Shown piece after piece: positions 17,179-36,325 of a stretch of DNA of 41,325 nucleotides. The position numbers and the translations under genes are program-made. The notes under the pieces were generated by a model. That model searched no databases, was not told the DNA's origin, and saw only the letters and a list, made by a program, of their open reading frames with translations. The stretch's first letter is position 1; every line of letters starts with the position of its first letter. The stretch is from an uncultured Opitutia bacterium (lineage in GTDB: Bacteria > Verrucomicrobiota > Verrucomicrobiia > Opitutales > CAJWYM01): contig CAJWYM010000030.1 in the NCBI GenBank assembly GCA_913049555.1, positions 1 to 41,325 of the forward strand, read 5' to 3'.

Positions 17179-17664
17179 ATGATAGAAAGCTTCGAATTAT
17201 TAATGAAAAAAATAGCAATCCATTCTCCATTCTTAATCAAAACAAAAAAGGGCTTTGCATTGATTGTCTCTTTGATGATTTTATCTTTGATTTTGCTTTT
17301 AATTTCCTTACTCACTAGCCAGTTGCAGATTCAAATAAAAAGTAGTGAATCGATCCTATTAAAAAAAAATCTCAATTAAACGCACGATTGGCTTTGGGAA
17401 AGATTGGATTGCTGAACGATTGCATGCGAAGACTCCCTCTCTCATATAAATAATTTTTCTTTTCAGTTAAAAGTAAATTCATTTGATCAAAAGACTAAAA
17501 AAATGAAAAAGCAGGTTCGACAGAGTTTGTCTTACAGAAAGGGGATTCGAATCATAGGAATTATTATGAATGAAAATTCTAAATTAGAGACGGAGCCTTT
17601 TTGGAGCATTATTCGCTTGGGGCCTTATAAAGACAATTTGGATATGAGTCGACTTTTAGAATAG
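17179..17664 (+). pseudogene. Prepilin/PilX-like gene, frameshifted remnant
   Basis: The first frame (17179-17379) encodes a type-IV-prepilin-like N-terminus: a short basic leader, KKGFALIVSLMILSLILLLI and a hydrophobic helix. It stops right after a run of nine A (17361-17369). One frame over, translation continues sensibly as SQLNARLALGKIGLLNDCMR, which is what follows the helix in Verrucomicrobial PilX-like proteins, then hits a stop at 17451. A third stretch (about 17455-17664) reads QLKVNSFDQKTKKMKKQVRQ onward to LDMSRLLE. Family members are usually much longer. I read this as a decayed gene with at least two frame breaks and internal loss. Confidence 0.55.
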
Positions 17665-17702
17665 AGTCTTTTTCTGAAATTCTTAGAATTAAGATGGGTC
17701 TT

Positions 17703-17849: not shown

Positions 17850-19019
17850 TCAAACCGCATTTTCTTTTCGATATTTTCCAGGACTGTTTCCTGTAATGCG
17901 TTTGAATACAACGCTTAGATATTCAGAGTGCTCATATCCGAGATTTTCGGCAATCTGGTCTAAAGTCCAGTTCGTTTCTCTGAGGAGCTGTTTTGCTTTC
18001 TCTACTTGAACCATTCGAATCTGGGATTGTGGGGTGCGGTTGAGTTCTTTCCGGAATCTTCTCTCCAGTAAACTTCTGGATGCCCCAGCATATTTACAAA
18101 CATCATCCACTGTAATCCCACGGGTTGCATGTTCATGAATAAAATTCAGGGCTTTTGCTACTCTTGGATCGTCGATCAAGTTAAATTCAGTAGATCTTCT
18201 TTCTACAACCCCTATGGAATCCGAAACAATTCTTAGAGTCGGAAGCTCTTTTTCATGCATTTGTTTATCAAGCAGGTAGGCCGCATTGTATCCAACGCGT
18301 TCGGGGTTTGGGTTTACAGATGAAATTTGGGGATAAGAGAGTTCGCAACGAGAAAGTTCATTATTCATTCCTAAAATTGAAATTTCCTCAGGGACAGGAA
18401 TGGAATACTTGAGGCAAGCATTGGTTGCAATCCGTGCAGCAAAATCATTGCAACATAATATAGATGCAGGTTTTGCGAGGGTAGAAAACCACTCTATTAA
18501 ATTCTCTTCTTGTTTTATCAACCAATTTGTAGGCACCTGGCTGAAGTATTCTACTTCCAATAAAGAATAGCTTTTTTTACAAAGCTTCAATGCTTCCAAG
18601 AATCCTTCTTTTCTCATATTGGCCCAAGATTCGTTTTTAAAGTTGTAATAACCAATGGATCGTGCGCCTTTTTCAATCAAATACTCTGCAGCAGAGTGAC
18701 CCATACCTACGTTGTCAAAGACCGATTCAGAAACTCCTTCAAAGGATTGAGAATCTAGCATACTGATGAGGGGTATTTTGCTCTTTTTGCAATAGTCTAC
18801 CAGTTTTTGGGTCGTATTTCTACAGATGACTCCTTGTAAATTTTTGCTATCAAGATCAAAAGGAGAATCTGCGGCATCGCCATGGTCGTCCAGATAGATT
18901 CTCCAAGGGTGATTAAGCTTCATATATTCAGAAATCCCTCGAGCGATCAGTGAACTGTTGCCATATTTCATTGGCATAACAATGGCAACCAATGGGATTT
19001 TAGAGGAGACTTTTTTCAT
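17850..19019 (-). CDS. XylR-like AraC-family transcriptional regulator
   Basis: A 389-residue regulator with the architecture of E. coli XylR. A LacI/periplasmic-binding-protein-like sensor domain (about 1-275) includes the LacI-type 'ILCCNDFAARIATNACLKYS' and 'PVPEEISILGMNNELSRCEL' segments. The C-terminal AraC double helix-turn-helix (about 285-386) contains TVDDVCKYAGASRSLLERRF and the second-helix signature IAENLGYEHSEYLSVVFKRI followed by TGNSPGKYR. Regulators of this type bind a sugar and activate neighbouring glycan-use genes. It is divergent from the GH5 gene. A copy of the AAATATCTCAAT motif lies immediately upstream, suggesting autoregulation. It is the likely regulator of the mannan locus. 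Confidence 0.88.
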   Translation of the reverse strand: MKKVSSKIPLVAIVMPMKYGNSSLIARGISEYMKLNHPWRIYLDDHGDAADSPFDLDSKNLQGVICRNTTQKLVDYCKKSKIPLISMLDSQSFEGVSESVFDNVGMGHSAAEYLIEKGARSIGYYNFKNESWANMRKEGFLEALKLCKKSYSLLEVEYFSQVPTNWLIKQEENLIEWFSTLAKPASILCCNDFAARIATNACLKYSIPVPEEISILGMNNELSRCELSYPQISSVNPNPERVGYNAAYLLDKQMHEKELPTLRIVSDSIGVVERRSTEFNLIDDPRVAKALNFIHEHATRGITVDDVCKYAGASRSLLERRFRKELNRTPQSQIRMVQVEKAKQLLRETNWTLDQIAENLGYEHSEYLSVVFKRITGNSPGKYRKENAV

Positions 19020-19431: not shown

Positions 19432-20412
19432 ATGAATTCCCTATCCTTCTCTTTTATCAAACATCTACTAATCTATTCATTCTGGATTTTCATTATATCC
19501 AGTCTCAGCTATGGGAGATTGAAAATTGAGGGTAAATCTCTCTTAGAATCCAACGGCGATCGTTTTATGATACGAGGAGTGAATGTGGCTCATACTTGGT
19601 TTAAAAAAGACACAAAAAGACATCTCTCCGAAGTCCGTAAATTGGGATTTAATACGGTTCGAATTGTTTTAAGCAATGGGCACCAATGGAAGCGAGACGA
19701 TAGGAAGCAAGTTCAGGATATTTTAGACTGGTGTCAGCAATATCAATTGATTGGAATCTTTGAGGTTCATGATTGCACAGGCTATCCAGATGACAAGAAT
19801 GCTGGAACCCTTCACCAAGCTGTGGAATATTGGATGGATCTTAAAGAGATCTTTGAAGGGACCGAAGATCGAGTAATTATCAATGTAGCGAATGAACCCT
19901 TCGGCAATAAAGCTAAAAAACAAGATTGGTTGATTGAACATAAAATTGCAGTGAAAAAACTGAGAGCTTCTGGTTTTAAAAATATATTGATGTTAGATGC
20001 TCCTAATTGGGGGCAAGATTGGTCATCTCGTATGCATTTATTTGCCAAAGAAATTTTGCAATTGGATTCTCAAGTTATATTCAGTGTTCATATGTATGAA
20101 GCCTATAAAACTCAAACAAAAGTGGAGCGCTATATAAAGACTTTTGCAAATCATAATTTTTGTTTGGTCGTTGGTGAGTTTGCCACGAGTCATTATGGAA
20201 AACCTGTTGCTGCTCAGGAAATCATGGATACTTGTCAAAAATATAAATATGGATATTTAGCATGGTCTTGGGTTGGAAATAAAAAAGAATTGGACGACTT
20301 GGATATTATAAAAAAAGATCGACAAAATGAATTGACCGATTGGGGTGCACTCATTGTCCATGGTAGAAATGGAATTGCAGAGACTTCTCGACAAGCAAGT
20401 TGCTTTCGGTAA
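19432..20412 (+). CDS. Secreted GH5 (subfamily 8-like) endo-beta-mannanase
   Basis: A 326-residue glycoside hydrolase with an N-terminal signal peptide (about 1-28). A single (beta/alpha)8 GH5 domain follows. The motif chain FMIRGVNVAHTWF, LGFNTVRIVLSNG, FEVHDCTGYPDD, INVANEPFGN, LDAPNWGQDW, FSVHMYEAY, VVGEFA and LAWSWVGN is the pattern of GH5_8 bacterial mannanases. The catalytic acid/base is Glu155 (NEPFGN) and the nucleophile Glu249 (VGEF). It should cleave internal beta-1,4-mannosidic bonds in mannan or glucomannan outside the cytoplasm. No carbohydrate-binding module is attached. It is adjacent and divergent to the regulator, and the epimerase follows 179 bases on. Confidence 0.88.
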   Translation: MNSLSFSFIKHLLIYSFWIFIISSLSYGRLKIEGKSLLESNGDRFMIRGVNVAHTWFKKDTKRHLSEVRKLGFNTVRIVLSNGHQWKRDDRKQVQDILDWCQQYQLIGIFEVHDCTGYPDDKNAGTLHQAVEYWMDLKEIFEGTEDRVIINVANEPFGNKAKKQDWLIEHKIAVKKLRASGFKNILMLDAPNWGQDWSSRMHLFAKEILQLDSQVIFSVHMYEAYKTQTKVERYIKTFANHNFCLVVGEFATSHYGKPVAAQEIMDTCQKYKYGYLAWSWVGNKKELDDLDIIKKDRQNELTDWGALIVHGRNGIAETSRQASCFR

Positions 20413-20591: not shown

Positions 20592-21995
20592 ATGATAAAT
20601 AACAAAATTAATTTCTGGATATTAAAAAATGGGCTTCTATTAGGGATTGTTCTAAAAGCAATCTTTTTGCCCACATTTGCTGGGGTGAAAATCTCGGGTA
20701 TGGAGGATTCAACTGAAAAGGATTTTAAATACCGTTTGTTTGCAATTCAGTTGGAAAAAAACCTCAAGACAGTTTTAGAAGCTTGGTTTCCGCTTTGTAT
20801 AGATAAAGAATTTGGAGGTTATCATCAGGATTTTAAATACAATTGGGAAAGGGGAGATTCTAAAGAGAGAATGCTCGTTTTTCAAACTCGAATGCTTTGG
20901 ATGGCTAGTCAAGTGATGATTCATTTTGAAGATCTAAGAGAGGAGTATAGAGAATATGTCTATCATGGTTTCCGGTATCTTAGAGATTTCATGTGGGATC
21001 AGGAACATGGAGGGTTCTATTTTAGAATGGATGTGGATGGGAATTTGATTGGGAGTTCAAAATATGATAAAGATGAAAAACATGCCTATCCACTTTCTTT
21101 TGCCATTTATGCTTTAGCAGATGCCTACCGGGCAACTCAAGACGATCAGATCTTACAAATGGCAATTGAGACCTTTGAATGGTTGGATGAAAAGGGTCAT
21201 GATAAGAATTATGGGGGATATTTTGAAGCCTTTGAGAGAGATGGAACCAAAATTCTTGAGCCAAAAGATTCCAAGCATCCTTTTTGTAAAATCGTAGACT
21301 CTTTGTATGGCTCCAAGACTATGAATACCCAAATTCATTTATTAGAGTCTTTTACAGCTTTAGCTACAGTGACAAAACACAAAATTTTGCATAACAGATT
21401 GAGAGAACTGCATTCCATCGTTTTGAATAAAATCTGTGTGAGTCCAGGAGCCATGAATTTATACTTCAATGCTGATTGGTCTGTGTTGCCGGACCACAAT
21501 TCTTTTGGTCACAATGTAGAAACTGCTTTTTTGCTAACGGAGTCTGCTAAAGCAATCGGTATTTCAGGGGACCCTAAAACAATTAGGATGTCTCGTGATT
21601 TGGTCGATCATTCCATTTTAGTTGGTTGGGATGTGAAGAACCATGGATTGATGGATTCCGGGGGGGTGACTCATGCAAGCTTTGAACGGGATAAGATTTG
21701 GTGGGTCCAAGCGGAAAACCTGAATGCATTGTTGCTGATGCACTCTAAGTATAATGAGGAAACAGGGAAGTACTGGAAGCTCTTTGTGGAACAATGGAAT
21801 TTCATAGATAACTATCTATTAGACCATGAAAATGGGGGTTGGCACTTATCGGTAGCTGAAAATGGAGCCTTGAATTCAATGCAGGATAAATGTCCACCCC
21901 ATGGTTGGAAGGCTTGTTATCACAACGGTCGGGCATTGATCCACTGCATTCAGACTTTACACTCATTAGCAAAACAATCTCTTTATGAAAATTAA
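20592..21995 (+). CDS. AGE-family 2-epimerase (mannobiose/cellobiose 2-epimerase-like)
   Basis: A 467-residue (alpha/alpha)6-barrel protein of the N-acylglucosamine/cellobiose 2-epimerase family. Visible motifs are FQTRMLWMASQVM, DQEHGGFYFRMDVDGN, a central HNVETAFLLTESAKA and WWVQAENLNALLLMH, with a final NGRALIHCIQTLHSLA. Beside a mannanase and a beta-mannosidase, the likely reaction is epimerisation of beta-1,4-mannobiose to mannosyl-glucose. The first 35 residues contain a hydrophobic stretch (ILKNGLLLGIVLKAIFLPTF) that looks like a signal peptide, which is unusual because characterised members are cytoplasmic. An internal ATG at 20700 (MEDSTEKDFKYR) would give a cytoplasmic form. The last 11 bases overlap the original start of the transporter frame. 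Confidence 0.82.
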   Translation: MINNKINFWILKNGLLLGIVLKAIFLPTFAGVKISGMEDSTEKDFKYRLFAIQLEKNLKTVLEAWFPLCIDKEFGGYHQDFKYNWERGDSKERMLVFQTRMLWMASQVMIHFEDLREEYREYVYHGFRYLRDFMWDQEHGGFYFRMDVDGNLIGSSKYDKDEKHAYPLSFAIYALADAYRATQDDQILQMAIETFEWLDEKGHDKNYGGYFEAFERDGTKILEPKDSKHPFCKIVDSLYGSKTMNTQIHLLESFTALATVTKHKILHNRLRELHSIVLNKICVSPGAMNLYFNADWSVLPDHNSFGHNVETAFLLTESAKAIGISGDPKTIRMSRDLVDHSILVGWDVKNHGLMDSGGVTHASFERDKIWWVQAENLNALLLMHSKYNEETGKYWKLFVEQWNFIDNYLLDHENGGWHLSVAENGALNSMQDKCPPHGWKACYHNGRALIHCIQTLHSLAKQSLYEN

Positions 21996-22080
21996 AAAAG
22001 ATAAAATTCCTGTGAAGCAAAAGATCGTCTACGGAATGGGTTCGATCAATGATATGTGGGGAGATTGATTATATCCTTCA
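21985..22080 (+). pseudogene. 5' part of the sugar symporter, cut off by an in-frame TGA
   Basis: An ATG at 21985 (in the end of the epimerase gene) opens in the same frame as the symporter. It reads KDKIPVKQKIVYGMGSINDM then WGD, TGA (22066-22068), LYPS, and runs straight into ATG 22081. This is the conserved N-terminus and start of the first membrane helix of GPH symporters, where 'DMWG(H/D)WLYP' is expected. The TGA therefore stands where a Trp (TGG) belongs. Confidence 0.75.
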
Positions 22081-23397
22081 ATGGTTTGGCCTGTATTTAA
22101 CATTTTTTTACATGTAAATCCTACTTTGGTTAGTTTGGCTTTGATGATTAATCGTCTAGTTGATGGCTTTACAGACCCAATTTTTGGATGGTGCTCCGAC
22201 AATACCAGAACTCGTTTTGGAAGAAGACGTCCTTATATCTTGGTGGGTTCAATCTTTGCAGGTATTTGTTTCCCCCTCTTATTTATGGTTTCCCCGAGTT
22301 GGAGTGAAAATAAGATATTTTGGTATATGGTTGTTTCTTCTGGTGTTATGGTAACAATTGTCAGTTCCTTCAATATGCCCTACCAAAGTTTAGGAAATGA
22401 GATGACCCCAGATTATAATGAAAAAACTTCCGTTTTTGCATACAAGGGGGTGCTTCAAAAAGTAGGAGAAGGAGCGATGTTTTTTGCCTCCGCATTTGTC
22501 ACTTTGAGTATTTTTAATGATCCTAATACAGGGGAGCCTAATGTTTTGTTTGGAGCCAGAGTGTATGCTGTAATCATTGGTATCTCTATGATAATTATTG
22601 GGGTTGTGATTTTTGTATGCCTTCAGGAACGATACTATCATAAAATAGTAGAGAAACAAAAAGCTAAAACTTCGATCTCGGAGACTCTTTGGAAAACTTT
22701 AAAATGCAAGCCATTTTTTGCCCAATTAGCCATGGCCTTGTCCTACGGAATCGGAACGAGTATGGTTGGATCGCTGGGTTATTATATAACCATTTATTAT
22801 GTTTGTGGGGGTGAGGTTGCTCTGGGCTCAAAATGGAACTTTGCAATGGGCATCGCAAACATGATCTTTGGTTTGTTAGGCGTGATTTTTTATTCAAGAT
22901 TGTCATTTAAGATTGGGAAGAGACATGCTATGATGACAGTTCAATTTTCTGCAATTGTCGCGTTCGCAACTAGTTGGTTTCTTTACAACCCTGACTTTCC
23001 TTGGCTTCAATTATTGGCTGCTGGTTCGATCGCCTTCACTCAAGGAGGCTTTTGGATGCTGTGTGGGGCTTTAGGTGCCGATGTAATCGACTATGATGAA
23101 TTGGATTCGGGCAAAAGAAGAGAAGGAGCTTTTGCGGCCTGTGCCACTTATATTATGAAAGTAGGTTTGGCAATCGGGCTAGGTCTCTCAGGTGTAGTTT
23201 TGTCATCGACGGGATTTGATGCAAAATTGGGGAAAACACAAAGTCCTGAGGCCTTGCAATCCATTCGGATTTTGTTTCTGTTCGTTCCAATTGTGGGTCT
23301 TTCATTTTCTTTTTTATGTTTGAGGAAATTTGGATTGAGTAAAGAAAAAATGGAGTCTATCAGACTCGATCTAGAGGCAAAAAGAGGAAGCGTTTAG
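22081..23397 (+). CDS. GPH-family sugar:cation symporter (MelB-like), N-terminus lost by stop codon
   Basis: The uninterrupted part encodes 438 residues of a glycoside-pentoside-hexuronide symporter of the major facilitator superfamily. It has about 11-12 membrane helices, the loop motif DGFTDPIFGWCSDNTRTRFG-RRRP (cytoplasmic loop 2-3), and FNMPYQSLGNEMTPDYNEKT (helix 4 region). It also has GFWMLCGALGADVIDYDELD, characteristic of the family. It would import mannobiose or mannose-containing oligosaccharides. The native start is probably ATG 21985. Starting at 22081 would remove 32 codons, including the first half of helix 1 with the conserved Asp-containing segment, so the protein may be inactive unless the stop is read through or is a sequencing error. 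Confidence 0.85.
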   Translation: MVWPVFNIFLHVNPTLVSLALMINRLVDGFTDPIFGWCSDNTRTRFGRRRPYILVGSIFAGICFPLLFMVSPSWSENKIFWYMVVSSGVMVTIVSSFNMPYQSLGNEMTPDYNEKTSVFAYKGVLQKVGEGAMFFASAFVTLSIFNDPNTGEPNVLFGARVYAVIIGISMIIIGVVIFVCLQERYYHKIVEKQKAKTSISETLWKTLKCKPFFAQLAMALSYGIGTSMVGSLGYYITIYYVCGGEVALGSKWNFAMGIANMIFGLLGVIFYSRLSFKIGKRHAMMTVQFSAIVAFATSWFLYNPDFPWLQLLAAGSIAFTQGGFWMLCGALGADVIDYDELDSGKRREGAFAACATYIMKVGLAIGLGLSGVVLSSTGFDAKLGKTQSPEALQSIRILFLFVPIVGLSFSFLCLRKFGLSKEKMESIRLDLEAKRGSV

Positions 23398-23952: not shown

Positions 23953-25488
23953 ATGAATATGAAAAAGTATTTTTTTATTTTACTTATCCTTCACTCTTTT
24001 ATCATGGTGGGATATGCTGACAATTCCCCCAACGTTCTCTTTATTGGGATTGATGATTTGCGTGTAGAACTAGGATGTTATGGCAGTAAACAAATCCATT
24101 CTCCAAACATAGATAAGTTATCTAGAGAAGCAGTTCAATTCAATAGAGCTTATGTTCAGCAGGCCGTTTGCTCCGCATCCAGAGCGAGTATCTTGAGTGG
24201 GTGTCGACCGGACACCACGGGGGTGGACTATCCATACAGTCTTTATTTTGTAAATGAATTCTTAAAATCTCATGATAGCTTGACTTCTTTTTTTACAAAA
24301 AATGGGTATTATACTCGAAACTTGGGTAAAATTCACCATGGAGGACAAGCCAAAGATTATGCAACTGAAAAGGCATGGGAACCGCCTTTTCAAAATCACT
24401 ACCAGTTGCCTGAAAATATAGAGTTAGGAATGCAATACAAGTCTGGTCGAGGACCAAAAACCCCGGCTTTTGAACTCGCGGATTTTCCAGACAAACATTA
24501 CAAAGACGGAATGACTACATCAGAGACACTCGCAACTCTGGATCGTATTAAGAATCTCAAACCCAAAGACCAACCATTTTTCCTTGCAGTTGGATATTTA
24601 AAACCTCATTTACCCTTTGTTTGTCCAAAGAAATACGGGGATCTATATGACCCGAAACAGATAAAAATACCCAACAACTTTGTGCTTCCAAAAGATTCGG
24701 ACGTATTTACGATCGCAACTTATGCTCTAAAGTCTTATGCAGGACCGAACCCTACCGCTGAGGAAAATGTGCCCTTGGCTTATGCACGAAATTTAATACA
24801 CGCTTACTATGCGTGTATCAGCTTCATTGATCATCAAGTGGGAATTCTACTCAATAAAATAAAAGAACTCGGTTATGAGGAAAATACGATTGTCGTTCTT
24901 TGGTCGGATCATGGATATCATCTGGGACATCAAGGGATGTGGGGTAAAACTACAAATTATGAAAATGCTACTCGATCCCCTTTAATGATAAAAGATCCAA
25001 GAATCCAAGAGACCTCTGGCATGCAAACAGAAGCATGGGTCGAATATGTAGATATCTATCCAACTTTAGCAGAATTGTGCGGACTCTCTATTCCTCAATA
25101 TTTAGAAGGAACCTCAATGGTCCCACTGTTATACAACCCCACTTTAAAATGGAAATCAGCCGCTTTCAGTCAATTTCCAAGAGGCAAAAATTTAGAGGGC
25201 TATGCAATTCGAACCAATCGTTTTCGATACATTGAATGGTGGAATAAAAACAAAGATACAGATCAATTGAAAAGTATTCGACTCAAAGAATTGTATGATC
25301 ATGAAATAGATCCAGAAGAAACAGTCAATGTGGCAGCAAATCCTGAATATAAAAACTGGGTTTCCGAACTAGAATTAAAATTGAAAGCTGGATGGAAAGA
25401 AGCATTGCCTGAAGGATTCCAAAATCTCTCTAACAATCCAAAAGCTCCACCAGCTGTTTCATTCAAAAAATCAAAGAAGAATCGTTGA
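23953..25488 (+). CDS. Secreted sulfatase, iduronate-2-sulfatase-like
   Basis: A 511-residue family S1 sulfatase with signal peptide (about 1-22: KKYFFILLILHSFIMVGYA). The metal-binding N-terminus is NVLFIGIDDLRVELGCYG. The formylglycine motif VCSASRASILSG holds the modifiable Cys73; the C-x-A-x-R form is acceptable to sulfatase-maturation enzymes. The later LWSDHGYHLGHQGMWGKTTN is the C-terminal metal/substrate region typical of iduronate-2-sulfatase-like enzymes (SDHG...LG). It should remove sulfate esters from a polysaccharide in the periplasm or outside. Same strand as the mannanase block, 555 bases from the transporter, so it may have its own promoter. Confidence 0.9.
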   Translation: MNMKKYFFILLILHSFIMVGYADNSPNVLFIGIDDLRVELGCYGSKQIHSPNIDKLSREAVQFNRAYVQQAVCSASRASILSGCRPDTTGVDYPYSLYFVNEFLKSHDSLTSFFTKNGYYTRNLGKIHHGGQAKDYATEKAWEPPFQNHYQLPENIELGMQYKSGRGPKTPAFELADFPDKHYKDGMTTSETLATLDRIKNLKPKDQPFFLAVGYLKPHLPFVCPKKYGDLYDPKQIKIPNNFVLPKDSDVFTIATYALKSYAGPNPTAEENVPLAYARNLIHAYYACISFIDHQVGILLNKIKELGYEENTIVVLWSDHGYHLGHQGMWGKTTNYENATRSPLMIKDPRIQETSGMQTEAWVEYVDIYPTLAELCGLSIPQYLEGTSMVPLLYNPTLKWKSAAFSQFPRGKNLEGYAIRTNRFRYIEWWNKNKDTDQLKSIRLKELYDHEIDPEETVNVAANPEYKNWVSELELKLKAGWKEALPEGFQNLSNNPKAPPAVSFKKSKKNR

Positions 25489-26058: not shown

Positions 26059-27879
26059 TCACTCGAAAGCAATCTCCGGTATTTGAGGGGGCCAGTTTTC
26101 CCAATTTGGAAATTGGGATTCTAGAGTTGGAGGCCATGCTTTAGATTTTGTATTGAACCATTTGGGTGCATTTTCTAATTCAGCATAGAACTGAGCTGTA
26201 TTTTCTGTCATTGCTTTGTATTGAGGCGATGAAATGAAGTTATCTGGATCGTTGAGAGTATAATCCACGTCAAAGTGATAATCAAAAGATGCAGAATATA
26301 CTCGAAGTCGATTTTTCAATTCTTCCAAAATTTTTGAGTACTCCGGATTGAAAGCCAAGTTGAATTGTTCTGCATTGTTTTTACCCACTAGGTAGAGTTG
26401 ATCTGGATCGTAATAGGCGGGATATACTTGCATTGTAAATTTGGGTTGCTCGGCTTTGGGCATGTTTAGATGGTTGATAGCAAAGAGCTCTTTTTCCTGT
26501 GAGCGAGTCCTTATTTCGTCGTAACTGAGCACTTCTGGAGTTCCGAATTTTGTGGCTTCCTTCATTTTTTCTATATCTTTCTTAGGATATCTCCATGCCA
26601 CATACTTGAATTCTTGCCCCTGAATTTTTGCTTTTATCATTCGGGTGTACCCAAACTCTGCATAAGTATCCTTTCTAATGTCCTCTTTTTCAGAAGTTCC
26701 TAAAATTGCGGGGAGAAAAGAGCGACCATCTATTTTATAATGTTTTAATTCCTCTTCACTCAATGGATGACCAATAATATCCAATGTAGTGGGCAAGACA
26801 TCAACAAGTTGTACTAGATGATCGTCTACTCGGTTTTTTTCGAATTTATCTTTCCAAAATAAAATCATAGGAATTCTTCCACCCGATTCATAAACAGAGG
26901 CTTTTCCAGGCTCTATGTTATGATCTGGAGCTAATATAAGGACTGTTTTTTCGAAAATGCCGACTTGCTTCAAGGTGTCAACGATTCTACCAATTTGTTG
27001 GTCCAACCAAATAGAGCTTAAATTTCTGTATTTGTTATCGTAGTTTTCGACTTTTTTTAGGGCAGCAATGCGATCCTTCTGAAAATTTGCCAATTCAGGG
27101 AGAATCCCCTCTGGTGTATGCGTTATATTTCCATTCATTAAACTGGGTTCTACTCTGGGTCCATGAATTACAGTCTGGTTCATTTGGAAATAAAAGGGCT
27201 TCTCTTTGTTTTCTTTAATAAAGTCCACACAACCTTTCGTTATCCATTCTAGGTTGTGATAACGAAGATCTTTCAATGGGGGAGCCTCCGCCCCATCAAA
27301 ATTACCGGTAAGCATGGCATTGGCATTTTGAAACCCAGTGAGTTCTTGGATTTTGGATGCGACAGCATTTTGATAATTTTGCAGTTTTTCATGCATTCCT
27401 GAGTCTGTAATTTTTGCATCAGGATTTAACCGAGGAAGCTCATAGGTTTTCATCCAGGTAATATGCCACTTTCCTGAGATACCGGTTTTGTATCCCAATT
27501 TATTAAAGAAAGTCGCAATGTTCGTCTCTGGCTTATTTATGTAAGTGTTCCATTGAATTGTGGCTACTTGGTTTTTAGATTTGGGAGGTCGGTTTTCATC
27601 AAAATAACGAGTTGCGTATTTTCCTGTTAAAAAGGAATAGCGGCTCGGCGTGCAAGCAGAGGCTGTGGTATAAGCCTGAGTAAATCGAACTCCCTCGCTT
27701 GCCAGTCGATCGATGTTAGGCGTTAAATCCTTGGGACCGCCAAAACAAGAAAAGTCTGTAAAGTCTGCATCATCAATGAGGATGGTTATAATGTTGGGTG
27801 GATCCTTTGCAAGGATGCACCAGAAAGGTAAGATAAAAATCAATGCAAGGGCTTGTTTTTTAAAAGAATTCGATTTCAT
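26059..27879 (-). CDS. Secreted sulfatase (family S1), ~606 residues
   Basis: A large S1 sulfatase. From ATG 27879 it has a signal peptide (MKSNSFKKQALALIFILPFW to about residue 26), then NIITILIDDADFTDFSCFGG for metal binding. The canonical formylglycine motif SACTPSRYSFLTGKYATR has Cys76. Further on are GYKTGISGKWH, VIHGPRVEP (histidine ligand region) and LILAPDHNIEPGKASVYESG. The C-terminal about 130 residues form an extra domain rich in Tyr and Trp. The frame opens at a TTG (27891) overlapping the stop of the upstream sulfatase, but the signal peptide begins at ATG 27879. It is the second gene of a two-sulfatase operon. The sugar specificity is unknown. Confidence 0.9.
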   Translation of the reverse strand: MKSNSFKKQALALIFILPFWCILAKDPPNIITILIDDADFTDFSCFGGPKDLTPNIDRLASEGVRFTQAYTTASACTPSRYSFLTGKYATRYFDENRPPKSKNQVATIQWNTYINKPETNIATFFNKLGYKTGISGKWHITWMKTYELPRLNPDAKITDSGMHEKLQNYQNAVASKIQELTGFQNANAMLTGNFDGAEAPPLKDLRYHNLEWITKGCVDFIKENKEKPFYFQMNQTVIHGPRVEPSLMNGNITHTPEGILPELANFQKDRIAALKKVENYDNKYRNLSSIWLDQQIGRIVDTLKQVGIFEKTVLILAPDHNIEPGKASVYESGGRIPMILFWKDKFEKNRVDDHLVQLVDVLPTTLDIIGHPLSEEELKHYKIDGRSFLPAILGTSEKEDIRKDTYAEFGYTRMIKAKIQGQEFKYVAWRYPKKDIEKMKEATKFGTPEVLSYDEIRTRSQEKELFAINHLNMPKAEQPKFTMQVYPAYYDPDQLYLVGKNNAEQFNLAFNPEYSKILEELKNRLRVYSASFDYHFDVDYTLNDPDNFISSPQYKAMTENTAQFYAELENAPKWFNTKSKAWPPTLESQFPNWENWPPQIPEIAFE

Positions 27880-27887
27880 TTTATAAA

Positions 27888-29693
27888 TCAAGGTTGGGAT
27901 GAAATTATTTTTTTGAAAAGTATATGATTTAGTTTGTTGAATGCGATAGGCACTCCCTGAGGCATAGATTCAATTGCAAGTGTAAGGTCTTGTTGCCCAG
28001 CTTTCAGTTTTATATTTCCTAATGTCCAATGACCGTTTTCTTTTTTAAGACTCCTCTGAATGGATGAATCTCCAATAGAAAGACTGTATTGGACTTCGTT
28101 TGTTGGTTTTGAAAGATCCAATAAAACTCGAAAAGTGCCGGATTCTGTAACATCCACAGGAATTGTTTGGGAGTCCCCCACGGCTTTCCAATTCGCAGAA
28201 TTATGGGATTGGATAATTACATTGCCAGTCGCAGATGTTCCCGTGCAGAACGGGATTTCGGACCCACGCAAATTAAGGCCTACCCGCTCGCAGAGATCGT
28301 ATTCTGAATGGCCAATATGAAATCGTGGTTGGGTGTAGGTATCTTTATCTGAATGCATCTTTAGATAGGCCAGTTTCATTTTTTGTGAAAGTGATTCTAC
28401 TAATTCAGGGAATTGTTTCGAGAGGTCTTTGTTTTCTTGGGGGTCTTCTTTTAAGTGGTACAATTTGTAACGACCTCGGTAAAAAATGAGTTTATAGGGT
28501 TCTTGAATCCATGCATTGATTTGGTTGGGGTATTTCATTGCTGATTTCTCGGGGAAGGGACCTTGTTTGTCCCACCCTTCCTTCCAGAAAGCAGTCCAAT
28601 AGGGGCGGAAAAACTCTCTAGCTTCAGGCCATTGTGTTTGTTTTCCCGATAAAAAGGGGAGCCATGATTTCCCAGTTACACTCGGGTCTTTTTTTTGTTT
28701 TACTTCGGCTAGGTCTAGAATAGTTGGGAAAAGGTCGGTCACATCCGTGAAAGATTTTATGATGGCTGGTTTTATTTTATTTTGCCAATGAATAAAACAC
28801 GGAACTCGCATCGCATTTTCATAAATATTACCTTTATTTCCTCGAAGACCCAAGGGTCTTCTCAAATCCCACTCTTCATCGGTCAATACCCCATTTTCAG
28901 TTTTTTTAGTGGAGCCATTGTCACTAATGAAAACAATTACAGTATTGTCTCTCATGCCTGATTCATCCAGATGGGACAAGAGTCTCCCTATGTTTTTATC
29001 CATAAATTCAATCATTCCATTGAGTTTTGAAAAATGCAATGAAAGCCCTTTTTTTAAATATTTGTTCACATATTCCTCAGGTGCTTCGATTGGCCCATGA
29101 GGGGTTAACAGTGAAAGCATCAAGAAAAACGGTTTCTTCTCTTTTCTATCTATGAATTGGATGGCTAAATCTGTAAAACTTTCATCTGCCCAACCTTTTA
29201 GATGAATCGCTTTTCCATTGTGTGAGATTGGCGTATTCTTATGTTTGTATAGAGAGGATACATAGGCTTGATCAAATCCTCGATTCCAAGGCATCCATGC
29301 AGGGGATCGACCGCTGTGCCATTTACCTATAAAGCCAGTGCGATAACCATGCTCACTTAAAATATCCGCAATCGTTTTTTCATCTAGAGCAAGATAGTCT
29401 TTGCCCTCGTGAACCCCCCATACTCCAACCGTATGGTGATTTTTACCAGTGAGTAGAGAGGCCCTGGTCGTTGCACAGACTGGAGTAGTGTGGAAATGAT
29501 CAAATCTCACAGAATTTTCTCCTAATCGGTCTAAATTAGGAGTTTCTATCACAGTATTGCCATGAAGAGAGAGGTCGCCGTAACCCTGATCGTCTGAAAC
29601 AATCAGTAAGAGATTCGGTCTTTCATTTGCAGCAAGTATTGTTGAAATAAAAGCTACAAAAATTAGGAACGGTAGAAAGCGATGAGAATGCAT
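27888..29693 (-). CDS. Secreted arylsulfatase-like sulfatase with non-consensus FGly motif
   Basis: A 601-residue S1 sulfatase with signal peptide (1-21). It has LLLIVSDDQGYGDLSLHGNT (metal ligands), GYRTGFIGKWHSG (active-site Lys/His), LLTPHGPIEAP and VIVFISDNGSTKKTENG. The C-terminal half carries an extra beta-rich domain (about 480-601) of the kind often appended to marine arylsulfatases. The maturation motif reads PVCATTRASLLTG, so the residue two after Cys73 is Thr, where consensus C-x-(P/A)-x-R has Pro or Ala. It heads the minus-strand operon, and the AAATATCTCAAT motif lies 68 bases upstream of its ATG. Confidence 0.9.
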   Translation of the reverse strand: MHSHRFLPFLIFVAFISTILAANERPNLLLIVSDDQGYGDLSLHGNTVIETPNLDRLGENSVRFDHFHTTPVCATTRASLLTGKNHHTVGVWGVHEGKDYLALDEKTIADILSEHGYRTGFIGKWHSGRSPAWMPWNRGFDQAYVSSLYKHKNTPISHNGKAIHLKGWADESFTDLAIQFIDRKEKKPFFLMLSLLTPHGPIEAPEEYVNKYLKKGLSLHFSKLNGMIEFMDKNIGRLLSHLDESGMRDNTVIVFISDNGSTKKTENGVLTDEEWDLRRPLGLRGNKGNIYENAMRVPCFIHWQNKIKPAIIKSFTDVTDLFPTILDLAEVKQKKDPSVTGKSWLPFLSGKQTQWPEAREFFRPYWTAFWKEGWDKQGPFPEKSAMKYPNQINAWIQEPYKLIFYRGRYKLYHLKEDPQENKDLSKQFPELVESLSQKMKLAYLKMHSDKDTYTQPRFHIGHSEYDLCERVGLNLRGSEIPFCTGTSATGNVIIQSHNSANWKAVGDSQTIPVDVTESGTFRVLLDLSKPTNEVQYSLSIGDSSIQRSLKKENGHWTLGNIKLKAGQQDLTLAIESMPQGVPIAFNKLNHILFKKIISSQP

Positions 29694-30151: not shown

Positions 30152-32683
30152 ATGTTAGACCACAAGAATTTACTTTTGAATCGAATCTTATTGAATGGGG
30201 ACTGGGAGATTACTCATCTGGATGGAGAGAATCCATTTTCTAAATCTCTTAAAATTACAGGGAATGTTCCAGGCCTGGTCCATCATGACTTGGTCTCTCA
30301 GGGAATTTTGGATGACCCCTATGAGAAAATGAATGAATTGGATCAACAATGGGTTGGGGGTTCGACTTGGTCTTATGAAAAAGCTTTTTGGCTTAAGGAA
30401 GAAGATCTCGATAGTAAGTCTTTGATTCTTCATTTTGATACTTTAGACACTGTAACTGAGATTAAAATCAATGAAGATTGGTTAGGATCCACGGATAATT
30501 ATTTTCTACAACATCGTTTCGAGGCAAAGTCTCATTTAAAAGTGGGTGAGAATCGGATTACAGTTGTGATCTATCCTGCGTCTTTGGAGATGAATAAAAG
30601 GGCAGGAGAGTATCCCCTTGAAATCTATTCGGTAGCGGCAAGGGAATGGTTTCCGAAGGTTAAAAATTTCTTGAGAAAACCGGCTGCACATGGAGGTTGG
30701 GATTGGGGGCCCTCTTTAAATCCGCAAGGAATTCCTGGGAATGTTTATTTAGAAAAAAAGGACGCTGCCTCCATCCGATACGTAACCCACAGCCAGATTC
30801 ACTCGAATGGATCCGTTCAATTAGAGGTCACTGTTCATTACGAGTCTGTTGTAAGGGGTGATTTTGAAATGGAAGTTTGTTTGGATGAGTATTGTTTCTC
30901 AAAGACTGTAAAAATAGATCAAGGAATCGGTTCTTGTGCTTTGGATTTTACAATTGAAGATCCAAATCTTTGGTGGCCTGTTGGATTGGGTGAGCCATAT
31001 TTGTACGACCTTAGAGTTCGTTTGGATTTTCAGGAAAATTCTGATACCTACCATCAGAAGATTGGTTTGAGAGAACTTCGCTTGTTGCACCAAAAAGAGC
31101 ATGCGGGCGTTGCTATGTTTTTCGAAGTGAATGGGAAACCTGTGTTTGCCAAAGGAACTAATTGGATCCCAACGGATATTTTTGAATCGAGAATAAAAGA
31201 GGAACAAATTCGTTGGGAACTGGAGTCCGCAAAAGCAGCCCATAATAATATGATCCGAGTTTGGGGAGGCGGTCGTTATGAAAGAGATGTTTTTTATCAA
31301 ATTTGCGATGAGCTAGGCTTGATGGTCTGGCAAGATTTTATGTTTGCCTGCGCTATGTATCCAGTAAATGAATCTTTTGTTCGAGAAGTAAAAAAAGAAG
31401 TCACTCATCAGATTCGACATTTGAGTCATCATGCTTCGATCGCGCTATGGTGCGGTAATAACGAGAATGAGCAGGCAATATCATGGGAGGAGTGTTCGGG
31501 GAAAGAGGTCTTGAAGGAGCAACTCTTACAAGAATACCACAAGTTGTATGTGGATACCATTCATCCAATCGTTCTTGCAGAAGATCCATCTCGTGATTAT
31601 TGGCCCTCCTCTCCATCCAATGGAATAGGGATTTACGAAGACGCACAAGATCCGACAAGGGGAGATGTTCACTTTTGGAGTGTTTGGCATGGCCAAAAGG
31701 ATTTCTCTTATTACAGAACCTGTAAACCAAGATTCAGTTCAGAGTTTGGCTTTGGATCCCTTGCCAGTGAGGAGACCATGAATCCATATATATCAAAAGA
31801 TCAGCGTTTCATTGATTCAGAACAGTTTGAATTTCATCAACGAAGCAATCAAACGGGAGCAGATGGAAATCAAAGGATTAAAGATGGAATTTTACGAGAG
31901 TTTGGAAAATTCGATCGTTATGAATCCACTATTTATTTATCACAAGCTTTGCAAATGTTAGCGATCCAAACTGCATGTGAGCATTGGCGAAGGTGCATGC
32001 CTTATAACATGGGAACTTTAATCTGGCAGCTGAATGATATTTGGCCGGGTAGTTCTTGGTCCAGTCTGGAGTTCGATGGTCGATGGAAAATGTTGCACTA
32101 TGCAATGAAGAGATTTTTCGCTCCAACTTTGATTTCTTGTTTTGAGGAAGGGAAAAATCTGTGTATCTGGCTCACCAGTGATTGTATCCAAAAGACGGAA
32201 GGAATTGTAAGGGTTAGCTTGTGTGATTTTAAAGGAAACTTATTGATGAAAAAAGAATACCCTGCATCTACTTCATTCAATAAGAGTTACGAAATTGTCA
32301 AAATCGCATATTCTGAATTAGAGGATTTTGGGATGAGGAAGCAGGACTCTTATGTTTTAGTTCAATATTTCTCTAATGATGATTCTGAGGTCTCACGATC
32401 TATTCATCTCTTTGACAATTACAAAGAGTTGTCCCTAGAGGGAGCGAATGTGAGGGTAGGTTTGAGAAAGATGGAAAGTCAAGTAGAGGCTACGATCCAA
32501 TCGGAAAATTTTGTTCCTTTCTTGTGGTTGAAACAAGGAGTTGCAGCAGGCACCTGGAGTGACAATGCTTTCCATCTTATCCCACAAGAAAAAGTATTGC
32601 TCACATTTAGTCCAAGGAGATTCAGTGATTTGGAGCTTTTTCAGTGCAGTCATATGGAACTAAATTCTCTTTATTTGGATTGA
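30152..32683 (+). CDS. GH2 beta-mannosidase
   Basis: An 843-residue exo-beta-mannosidase. N-terminal jelly-roll domain: NGDWEITHLDG, NVPGLVHHDLVSQGILDDPY and the mannosidase hallmark AAHGGWDWGPSLNPQGI at about residues 180-196. Immunoglobulin-like domain: WWPVGLGEPYLYDL. TIM-barrel: KGTNWIPTDIFESR, MIRVWGGGRYERDVFYQICD, then WCGNNENEQ with acid/base Glu438, and FSSEFGFGS with nucleophile Glu531. No signal peptide is visible, so it is probably cytoplasmic and acts on imported mannobiose or longer oligomers. It is preceded by the proposed operator. Length and motifs are normal for the family. Confidence 0.93.
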   Translation: MLDHKNLLLNRILLNGDWEITHLDGENPFSKSLKITGNVPGLVHHDLVSQGILDDPYEKMNELDQQWVGGSTWSYEKAFWLKEEDLDSKSLILHFDTLDTVTEIKINEDWLGSTDNYFLQHRFEAKSHLKVGENRITVVIYPASLEMNKRAGEYPLEIYSVAAREWFPKVKNFLRKPAAHGGWDWGPSLNPQGIPGNVYLEKKDAASIRYVTHSQIHSNGSVQLEVTVHYESVVRGDFEMEVCLDEYCFSKTVKIDQGIGSCALDFTIEDPNLWWPVGLGEPYLYDLRVRLDFQENSDTYHQKIGLRELRLLHQKEHAGVAMFFEVNGKPVFAKGTNWIPTDIFESRIKEEQIRWELESAKAAHNNMIRVWGGGRYERDVFYQICDELGLMVWQDFMFACAMYPVNESFVREVKKEVTHQIRHLSHHASIALWCGNNENEQAISWEECSGKEVLKEQLLQEYHKLYVDTIHPIVLAEDPSRDYWPSSPSNGIGIYEDAQDPTRGDVHFWSVWHGQKDFSYYRTCKPRFSSEFGFGSLASEETMNPYISKDQRFIDSEQFEFHQRSNQTGADGNQRIKDGILREFGKFDRYESTIYLSQALQMLAIQTACEHWRRCMPYNMGTLIWQLNDIWPGSSWSSLEFDGRWKMLHYAMKRFFAPTLISCFEEGKNLCIWLTSDCIQKTEGIVRVSLCDFKGNLLMKKEYPASTSFNKSYEIVKIAYSELEDFGMRKQDSYVLVQYFSNDDSEVSRSIHLFDNYKELSLEGANVRVGLRKMESQVEATIQSENFVPFLWLKQGVAAGTWSDNAFHLIPQEKVLLTFSPRRFSDLELFQCSHMELNSLYLD

Positions 32684-33201: not shown

Positions 33202-34047
33202 ATGGCTCATCTAGAATCAGAGGAAACGACCGACGGAATTAGAAAAGTTCGAATTCTTCGCTACCGAAATGGCTCTTACAATTACCTTGAGGATTCAATC
33301 GCAGCTGAAGAACCCTTAGAAATCCTTGTGGCCTATGGTTGGCATGCCCCTTTTAAAGCCACCACATTGACAATGAGGACAATGGGGAATGATTATAATT
33401 TAGCGGTCGGTTTTCTTTTCAGTGAGGGGTTTATATTTTCAAAAGAAGACTTATTAGAATTTCACAAAGAAGGACAACATCGCATTTTCTTTCGTTTGGT
33501 TGAAGAGCGAGCAAAAGAGATAAAGTCAAAGAATCAATTCTCCAATTCTGCTTGTGGAGTTTGTAGCAATCAAGAATTAAAAGATCTAAACCTTGAGGAT
33601 TTGAGTCCACTGCCAAAAACAAGAAGATTTAGAAATCTTCCCTTTGAAAAAATCATCCATGCAATGTTAAAAGAGCAAAGTATTTTTTCGACTACAGGTG
33701 GCATTCATTGTTCCGCTTTGGTGGATGATCAAGGCGATATTCTGTATCAAGCAGAGGATATAGGACGACACAATACAGTCGACAAATTAGTCGGGCAATG
33801 CCTGGAGAAAAAATACGCTCCTCAGGATTGCTTTTTATTAGTCAGTGGACGGTGTGGATTTGAAATTATCCAAAAAGTGGCCAAAGCAAAAATCAGTGTC
33901 GTCCTCTCTATTGGAGCTCCCTCTAGTTTGGCTGTCGAGTTGGCGGATTGGATGAATATCTGCATTGTTGGATTTTTAAAGAAGAATCAGCACAATATCT
34001 ATACCCATCCTTTTCGAGTTCTTGAGACCCCATTGTCAAAAAAATGA
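33202..34047 (+). CDS. fdhD: Sulfurtransferase FdhD, molybdenum-cofactor sulfuration
   Basis: A 281-residue FdhD-family protein. It has the conserved TMRTMGNDYNLAVGFLFSEG, the sulfur-relay cysteine pair in NSACGVCSN (Cys118 and Cys121), the FSTTGGIHCSALVDDQGDIL block, EDIGRHNTVDKLVG and LVSGRCGFEIIQKVAKA. FdhD passes sulfur from a cysteine desulfurase to the Mo-bis-MGD cofactor of formate-dehydrogenase-type enzymes. Its presumed client starts seven bases downstream of the stop, so the two form an operon. Confidence 0.93.
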   Translation: MAHLESEETTDGIRKVRILRYRNGSYNYLEDSIAAEEPLEILVAYGWHAPFKATTLTMRTMGNDYNLAVGFLFSEGFIFSKEDLLEFHKEGQHRIFFRLVEERAKEIKSKNQFSNSACGVCSNQELKDLNLEDLSPLPKTRRFRNLPFEKIIHAMLKEQSIFSTTGGIHCSALVDDQGDILYQAEDIGRHNTVDKLVGQCLEKKYAPQDCFLLVSGRCGFEIIQKVAKAKISVVLSIGAPSSLAVELADWMNICIVGFLKKNQHNIYTHPFRVLETPLSKK

Positions 34048-34054
34048 TTAAAAA

Positions 34055-36325
34055 ATGAGCAACGAAGATACGCCTGAAAAATTAACAGGGATCCGCATCG
34101 AAAAATCAAAAACTTTCGCTGCAGGCATGGGTGCTGTTGCGAATTCCATGAAGCACATTCTTAGAGAATCCGGTTTGGTTCATGGAAGCAGAGTATTGTT
34201 GGGGTTGAATCAAAAAAATGGATTCGATTGTCCCTCGTGTGCTTGGCCGGATCCAGATGATCATCGAGCAACCACAGAATTTTGTGAAAATGGTGCAAAA
34301 GCAATTGCTTCAGAATCCACTAAAAAGCGAATTACAGCTGAGTTTTTTAAAGAACATTCGATTGATTCCATAGGAGAGAAAAGCGATTTTTGGCACGAAC
34401 TTCAGGGGCGTTTGACCGAACCCATGTTTTTACCTAAAGGGGCGAAACATTACCAACCGATAAGTTGGGAAAAAGCATGCCATTTGATTGCTCAAAATCT
34501 TAGGGATTTAGAAGATCCTGACGATGCGATCTTCTACACCTCAGGTAGAGCCAGCAATGAAGCTGCATTTTCTTATCAATTGCTGGCCCGTATGTATGGA
34601 ACTAACAACTTACCAGATTGTTCCAATATGTGTCATGAATCGAGCGGTGCTGCTTTGAATCAAATGATTGGGATTGGAAAAGGCACAGTGACTTTGGAGG
34701 ATTTTGATCATGCAGAAAGCGTTTTTGTTATCGGACAAAACCCGGGCACAAACCACCCTCGCATGTTATCGGCCTTGCAAAATTGTGTTCGCAATGGGGG
34801 AAAGATTATATCGGTAAATCCTCTACAAGAGGCAGGTCTTCTCGGTTTCGCTCATCCTCAGGAGATAAAAGGAATGATGGGTCAATCGACCGCGCTTTCT
34901 TCACTCTACCTTCAAATAAAACCAAATGGGGATCACGCTTTATTTAAGGGAATAGCAAAGTGTATTCTAGAGAATCAATTAGAGGATACTGAATTCATTA
35001 AAAATTTCTGTAATAGTTTTGAAGAATATAAAGTTTCTATTGAAAATCAGAGTTGGGAGACCATTGTCAAAGAATCGGGCTTGTCCAGAAATCTGATTGA
35101 GCAAGCCGCTTTTGAGTTTGGAAAAAGCAAAGGGGTCATTGTTTGTTGGGCGATGGGATTGACTCAGCATAAAAATGCGGTCTCCACGATTGAAGAACTG
35201 GTTAATATCCAGATCCTAACTGGAAATCTTGGTAAGAAAGGAGCGGGTCTGTGCCCCGTTCGTGGACACAGCAATGTGCAGGGAGACAGGACGATGGGTG
35301 TTTTTGAGAAAATGCCCGATAGTTTCCACGATTCTTTAGACCGCTACTTTAAATTCCAATCTCCTCGCAAGCATGGACACGATGTGGTGAATGCCATAAA
35401 ATCTATGCATGAAGATGCAGGAAAGGTTTTTATTGCGTTGGGGGGGAATTTCTTATCTGCCTCTCCAGATACCTCTTACACTGCGGAAGCATTGCGGAAT
35501 TGTAAACTAACCGTTCAAATTTCAACCAAATTAAACCGCTCTCATGTTGTGACTGGAGAGCAAGCATTGATATTGCCCTGTCTTGGAAGAAGCGAAATAG
35601 ACCGAACTTCTTGTGGAGAACAATTTGTTTCTATGGAAAATTCTATGGGAGTGGTTCAATCCTCCCATGGCAGATTTAAACCTGCTTCCGTTCATTTGAA
35701 AGGAGAGCCTGCGATTGTCTCGATGATTGGCGAATCTTTGTTTGCAGAAAAATTATTTTGGCAGCATTGGACCCAGGACTATGGACTTATCCGAAAAGCT
35801 GTGGAAGGGGTGATTTCTGGTTTTGAAAATTTCAATGAAAGAGTTTTGGAGCCAGGAGGATTTTACTTGCCCAATCCTGTCAAGGAGAGAGATTTTTCAA
35901 TTGTGGGAGGGAAGATTCATTTCAGAATAAATCCAATCGATCTGATTCAACCCCAAAAAAACCAGTTAGTTTTAATGACGATCAGGAGTCATGATCAATT
36001 CAACACAACTGTTTATGGCCTCGACGACCGGTATCGAGGCATTTACAACGAACGTAGAGTTCTTTTAATGAATCGATCGGATATGGAAGACCGAGGAATT
36101 AAACCGGAAGAGCCTGTAAACATTACAAGTCACTATCAGGGACAAACTCGCGAGGCACATTTGTTTCTGGCAATTGAATACCAAGTTCCAAAAGGCTGTG
36201 CAGCTGCATATTTTCCCGAGGCAAATGCTCTCGTGCCCATCGACAGCACTGCGGATAAGAGCAATACTCCCACCTCCAAGGGAATCTTAATTACTGTCTC
36301 AAGTGCCTCAGCCAAGGTTGGTTGA
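34055..36325 (+). CDS. FdhF/YdeP-type molybdopterin oxidoreductase
   Basis: A 756-residue catalytic subunit of the molybdopterin (bis-MGD) oxidoreductase superfamily, YdeP branch. The N-terminal cysteines occur as GFDCPSCAWPDP followed by EFCENGAKA, the pattern of this branch. Later motifs are ISWEKACHLIAQNL, FYTSGRASNEAAFSYQLLAR, CSNMCHESSG (candidate Mo-ligand Cys), FVIGQNPGTNHPRM and NVQGDRTMG. The C-terminal MopB-binding domain contains MTIRSHDQFNTTVYGLDDRY. Family members are called formate dehydrogenases, but activity is poorly proven. No partner beta or gamma subunit is nearby. FdhD next door supports a need for cofactor sulfuration. Confidence 0.88.
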   Translation: MSNEDTPEKLTGIRIEKSKTFAAGMGAVANSMKHILRESGLVHGSRVLLGLNQKNGFDCPSCAWPDPDDHRATTEFCENGAKAIASESTKKRITAEFFKEHSIDSIGEKSDFWHELQGRLTEPMFLPKGAKHYQPISWEKACHLIAQNLRDLEDPDDAIFYTSGRASNEAAFSYQLLARMYGTNNLPDCSNMCHESSGAALNQMIGIGKGTVTLEDFDHAESVFVIGQNPGTNHPRMLSALQNCVRNGGKIISVNPLQEAGLLGFAHPQEIKGMMGQSTALSSLYLQIKPNGDHALFKGIAKCILENQLEDTEFIKNFCNSFEEYKVSIENQSWETIVKESGLSRNLIEQAAFEFGKSKGVIVCWAMGLTQHKNAVSTIEELVNIQILTGNLGKKGAGLCPVRGHSNVQGDRTMGVFEKMPDSFHDSLDRYFKFQSPRKHGHDVVNAIKSMHEDAGKVFIALGGNFLSASPDTSYTAEALRNCKLTVQISTKLNRSHVVTGEQALILPCLGRSEIDRTSCGEQFVSMENSMGVVQSSHGRFKPASVHLKGEPAIVSMIGESLFAEKLFWQHWTQDYGLIRKAVEGVISGFENFNERVLEPGGFYLPNPVKERDFSIVGGKIHFRINPIDLIQPQKNQLVLMTIRSHDQFNTTVYGLDDRYRGIYNERRVLLMNRSDMEDRGIKPEEPVNITSHYQGQTREAHLFLAIEYQVPKGCAAAYFPEANALVPIDSTADKSNTPTSKGILITVSSASAKVG

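Follow-up and report, generated by a model that had tools for sequence, protein, structure and literature searches.

A premature TGA within helix I of a GPH-type sugar symporter gene in an uncultured Opitutia bacterium: probably a recent nonsense mutation

Introduction

The GPH:cation symporters (MFS_2, PF13347; TIGR00792) have MelB as their prototype, and in this protein Lys18, Asp19, Ile22 and Tyr26 of helix I contribute to the sugar site (PMC8329300). Here, we describe a member of the family from a 41,325-nucleotide stretch of Opitutia DNA, which is called the window below. Taken at full length, its reading frame aligns with known GPH symporters from helix I to the C-terminus. It differs from them in being broken by a TGA in helix I and, when scored from an ATG at 22081, in falling under the TIGR00792 cut-off. 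It is about 60–69% identical to an uncharacterized Opitutales subfamily and lies far from the characterized GPH members.

Two further kinds of described system resemble this gene. Bacterial unitary pseudogenes that owe their origin to a single nonsense mutation share with it one point change to a stop in an otherwise intact frame, as well as the presence of paralogs, one of which is a sister GPH copy decaying in the same genome. Genomes with UGA-to-Trp reassignment, such as that of Ca. Pinguicoccus supinus (Verrucomicrobiota, named in PMC13092985), likewise have TGA at Trp positions, whereas the genome of the window retains RF2 with its frameshift control and commonly uses TGA as a stop.

Results

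The symporter frame begins at ATG 21985, runs for 27 codons to a TGA at codon 28, with T as the next base, and is then open until a stop at 23395–23397. The TGA is the sole interruption of the frame 21985–23397, with no second lesion, and the earlier note's description of a frame open except at this codon holds at every point: the first ATG, the TGA, the in-frame ATG 22081 (12 bases past the TGA) and the final stop are all present. When the TGA is taken as any residue, the frame yields 470 residues. Features of the gene and its neighborhood are collected in Table 1.

Table 1. Coordinates of the interrupted symporter gene and of neighboring features in the window
Feature	Position	Strand	Evidence
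Regulator, LacI-type sensor domain and AraC-type HTH	17850–19019	-	Domains
GH5 (Cellulase, PF00150) glycoside hydrolase, intact	19432–20412	+	Pfam
2-epimerase (GlcNAc_2-epim family), intact, just upstream of the symporter	20592–21995	+	Domain coverage
5' symporter fragment, 27 codons and premature TGA	21985–22068	+	Ortholog match of residues 9–27
In-frame TGA, a Trp codon in all five closest orthologs, followed by T	22066–22068	+	Ortholog comparison
Rest of the symporter frame, open, 438 aa, covering a GPH:cation symporter from part-way through helix I as far as the C-terminus	22081–23397	+	Pfam, NCBIfam
Sulfatase, intact	23953–25488	+	Domain match
Sulfatase, intact	26059–27891	-	Domain match
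Sulfatase, intact	27888–29693	-	Domain match
GH2 hydrolase with mannosidase-type Ig domains, intact	30152–32683	+	Domain match

A profile match over most of its length places the protein in the GPH:cation symporter family. The part that follows ATG 22081 matches PF13347 (MFS_2; Pfam, 28–423 of 427, E 3.4e-59), and its similarity to TIGR00792 in NCBIfam stays below the curated cut-off when scored from that ATG (185.8 versus 231.35 bits). MelB structures align with the TGA-bridged protein from residue 10 to residue 463, across the stop site, which indicates that the 27 codons upstream of the TGA make up one protein with the frame downstream. This agrees with the earlier claim that both sides belong to a single symporter family, and residues 9–27 of the 5' fragment match the orthologs at 10–14 of 19 positions. 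The TGA is aligned to Gly23 of MelB, a helix I residue that the sugar-site positions Lys18, Asp19 and Ile22 precede and Tyr26 follows; a product that ends at codon 28 has no complete helix I.

A scan of species genomes provided five close orthologs (L039–L043) and one distant match. The five, which are 60–69% identical to the window symporter, come from Verrucomicrobia-type MAGs (titled Puniceicoccales, Opitutales and Opitutaceae, with one titled Deltaproteobacteria). All of them have Trp at the TGA codon, in a local sequence of 'NDMWGN-W-LYPS' or near it, and they share the segment '-EDKVPVKQKIAYG-' with the window frame. The comparison with relatives for which the earlier note had called therefore gives Trp in every nearest ortholog, and the stop lies within a frame that these orthologs keep intact, as in a nonsense pseudogene. 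Across all 32 homologs, the same column holds W in 10 and N, A, D, M, V, Q, T, S or H elsewhere. Judging from this alignment, Trp at the TGA codon is a trait of the subfamily only and is variable in the wider GPH family, so that the description of a conserved Trp stands for the subfamily and does not extend to the family. All five orthologs also start well upstream of the TGA codon, so that ATG 22081 is not the normal start of the protein; family proteins beginning there, which the earlier note had named as evidence against its reading, were not found among them.

Apart from the TGA, the symporter shows no excess of erosion. The other five orthologs are invariant at 208 sites, of which 15 differ in the window symporter, compared with 8, 9, 13, 16 and 24 in the intact orthologs, and its pairwise identity to the others (60–68%) is slightly under that among them (63–74%). 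In the wider family, 49 positions reach a conservation of at least 90%; the window symporter retains 45 of them, with mild substitutions at the other four. For a neutral frame of 470 codons, we modeled a gain of about 1.2–2.1 additional stops or frameshifts for each 1% of divergence, with indel rates assumed to be 5–10% of substitutions. Since no further lesion is present, the loss, if real, would by this model be younger than about 1.4–2.5% neutral divergence, and erosion no greater than in intact relatives also suggests a young lesion.

TGA is an ordinary stop in this genome. In 434 kb of the genome, 195 frames have 300 or more codons, and TGA closes 68 of them. RF2 is present above the family cut-off, encoded by a prfB gene with the classic autoregulatory programmed +1 frameshift site AGGAGGTATCTTTGAC, including its in-frame TGA (L081 1380–1560, G000 contig C1). 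Frameshift control of RF2 at AGGAGGTATCTTTGAC means that this TGA must terminate. Of the 118 sulfatase-domain matches in the genome, 117 are free of internal stops, while the remaining one has TAG and TAA and no TGA. A UGA = Trp code (table 4 or 25-like) is rejected on these three grounds. Neither the loci scanned nor a pattern search yielded a tRNA with anticodon TCA. The TGA at 22066–22068 is not a code change and brings no new reading of the genetic code, as the earlier note had concluded from TGA acting as a normal stop. We set aside a coding-potential scan for interrupted genes (434 kb), which was too insensitive and missed the TGA at 22066–22068.

The assembly is a 3.1 Mb draft of 102 contigs and is 95.29% complete. 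The tRNAs listed by Rfam and ARAGORN (150 of 282 candidates scored) included no tRNA-Trp, anticodon-loop patterns gave no tRNA, and SecE had no match in the assembly. SecE commonly follows tuf and trnW. G000 contig C71 carries an EF-Tu-like fragment right at its end, and this fragment, together with the absence of SecE, suggests an assembly gap at tuf-trnW-secE, which is probably why tRNA-Trp is missing from the assembly.

In the window, the gene order is GH5, 2-epimerase, symporter, three sulfatases and GH2, with the enzymes all intact by domain coverage, and the symporter ATG overlaps the end of the 2-epimerase gene by 11 bases. Nothing else in the locus is damaged, and so it gives no independent sign of the pathway being given up. 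The proposal that the gene serves mannan uptake fits the neighboring GH5, the GH2 with mannosidase-type Ig domains and the 2-epimerase, but it is a guess only, given that the orthologous transporters adjoin other genes: a sulfatase, a TonB-receptor plug protein, housekeeping genes and, next to L041, a regulator of the same LacI-type sensor and AraC-type HTH architecture. A beta-mannan or related substrate is plausible for the locus. Beside it, at 33202–36325 (+), lie an FdhD-like protein and then a molybdopterin oxidoreductase. The 118 sulfatase-domain matches in a genome of 3.1 Mb, nearly all free of internal stops, mark the organism as a sulfated-polysaccharide specialist.

The window has no other GPH-type symporter, in keeping with the earlier description of this one as the only sugar symporter of the locus, though the genome as a whole holds about nine other GPH matches: seven long open frames (30–33% identity), one divergent and one broken. 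The broken copy (L009 1381–2100; G000 contig C3, about 85865–86600) has an in-frame TAG, lacks its C-terminal half and adjoins a sulfatase gene; it is clearly a pseudogene, and 22066–22068 is therefore not the only site where a GPH gene has decayed. In the window itself, 17203–17665 (+) holds a frameshifted, stop-containing N-terminal remnant with the hydrophobic N-terminus 'KKGFALIVSLMILSLI'. This is a decayed gene, whose family has about nine large open frames (about 730–1250 aa) elsewhere in the genome. Both cases indicate that gene decay occurs in this genome.

Discussion

The earlier note had offered a recent nonsense mutation, a sequence error or readthrough as explanations, and our tests favor the first, leave some room for the second and oppose the third. 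A recent nonsense mutation that inactivates one GPH (MelB-like) sugar:cation symporter gene is the best reading, and we consider it likely. The Trp codon of the subfamily would have become TGA at codon 28, and ribosomes starting at 21985 would halt after 27 residues, inside transmembrane helix I. No working transporter would then come from the TGA allele, save possibly a trace from readthrough. This takes the TGA base to be real and the allele to be inactive, as both presumably are. Because several intact GPH paralogs are kept in the genome, the loss of one member would be tolerable, and the paralogs may be able to compensate for it. The absence of a second disabling lesion is also expected of an error or of an occasionally read-through gene.

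The main alternative to a nonsense mutation, and a less likely one, is an error or strain polymorphism; we regard a wrong consensus base in the draft, or a base from a minority strain of a mixed population, as rather improbable. The assembly is a draft with gaps, from which SecE and tRNA-Trp are missing, and one substitution with no other lesion has the appearance of an error. Substitution errors are rare in assembled contigs, however, and the near absence of internal stops from the sulfatase-domain matches shows that this assembly is not rich in false stops.

Functional readthrough, in which a tRNA-Trp (wild type, Hirsh-type or a variant with a 4-bp anticodon stem) decodes the TGA often enough to give a useful, low or regulated dose of symporter, is very doubtful. 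UGA is the leakiest stop, at 1e-2 to 1e-3 in E. coli and Salmonella (PMC4989110), which makes a trace of full-length symporter plausible. UGA-reading tRNA-Trp variants also occur in bacteria (Hirsh G24A, A9C and the 4-bp anticodon stem; PMC13092985), the genome's own tRNA-Trp apparently lies in the assembly gap, and the symporter frame is conserved past the TGA. Conservation of the stop, the mark of programmed readthrough, is nevertheless absent, with TGA in none of the five orthologs. The base after the TGA is T, and a U at +4 is described in PMC5289835 as lowering readthrough in E. coli; the RNA downstream folds no better than shuffled sequences (z 0.33), SelB is not found above cut-off, and the sulfatase-domain matches hold no further candidate. 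That a low but selected readthrough by a variant tRNA-Trp throttles the symporter, in a genome that otherwise stops at TGA, is barely credible.

It is also highly improbable that reinitiation at ATG 22081 yields a working N-truncated symporter. This ATG is in frame and close behind the stop, where a restart is possible, and 22081–23397 is fully open. The product, however, would be without the first 32 residues and would start within helix I, in line with the earlier expectation that part of this helix would be lost, and those residues include the positions aligned with MelB Lys18, Asp19, Ile22 and Tyr26; judged by this alignment, transport by a protein lacking all four is unlikely. The upstream starts of all five orthologs also speak against it. 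The lone SD-like run, GGGGAG (22058–22063), sits 17 bases from ATG 22081, and SD-like motifs are not enriched in the genome (31 before mechanically chosen first ATGs versus 37 at random places, of 262), so there is no positive start signal at this ATG. Selenocysteine insertion was rejected: SelB has no match above cut-off in the genome, its lower-scoring matches presumably being those that other translation GTPases give, no structured RNA follows the TGA, and Cys is absent from the TGA column in all 32 homologs compared.

The TGA is thus probably an ordinary, young nonsense lesion that inactivates a single transporter of its family. Annotation pipelines would set the symporter start at 22081, concealing the break. 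Minor by itself, the recent nonsense mutation would be a clean case of a large transporter family losing a member to a point mutation in a sulfated-polysaccharide specialist. If the TGA base is real, the product of one polysaccharide locus, with enzymes that are still intact, may no longer be imported by this strain.
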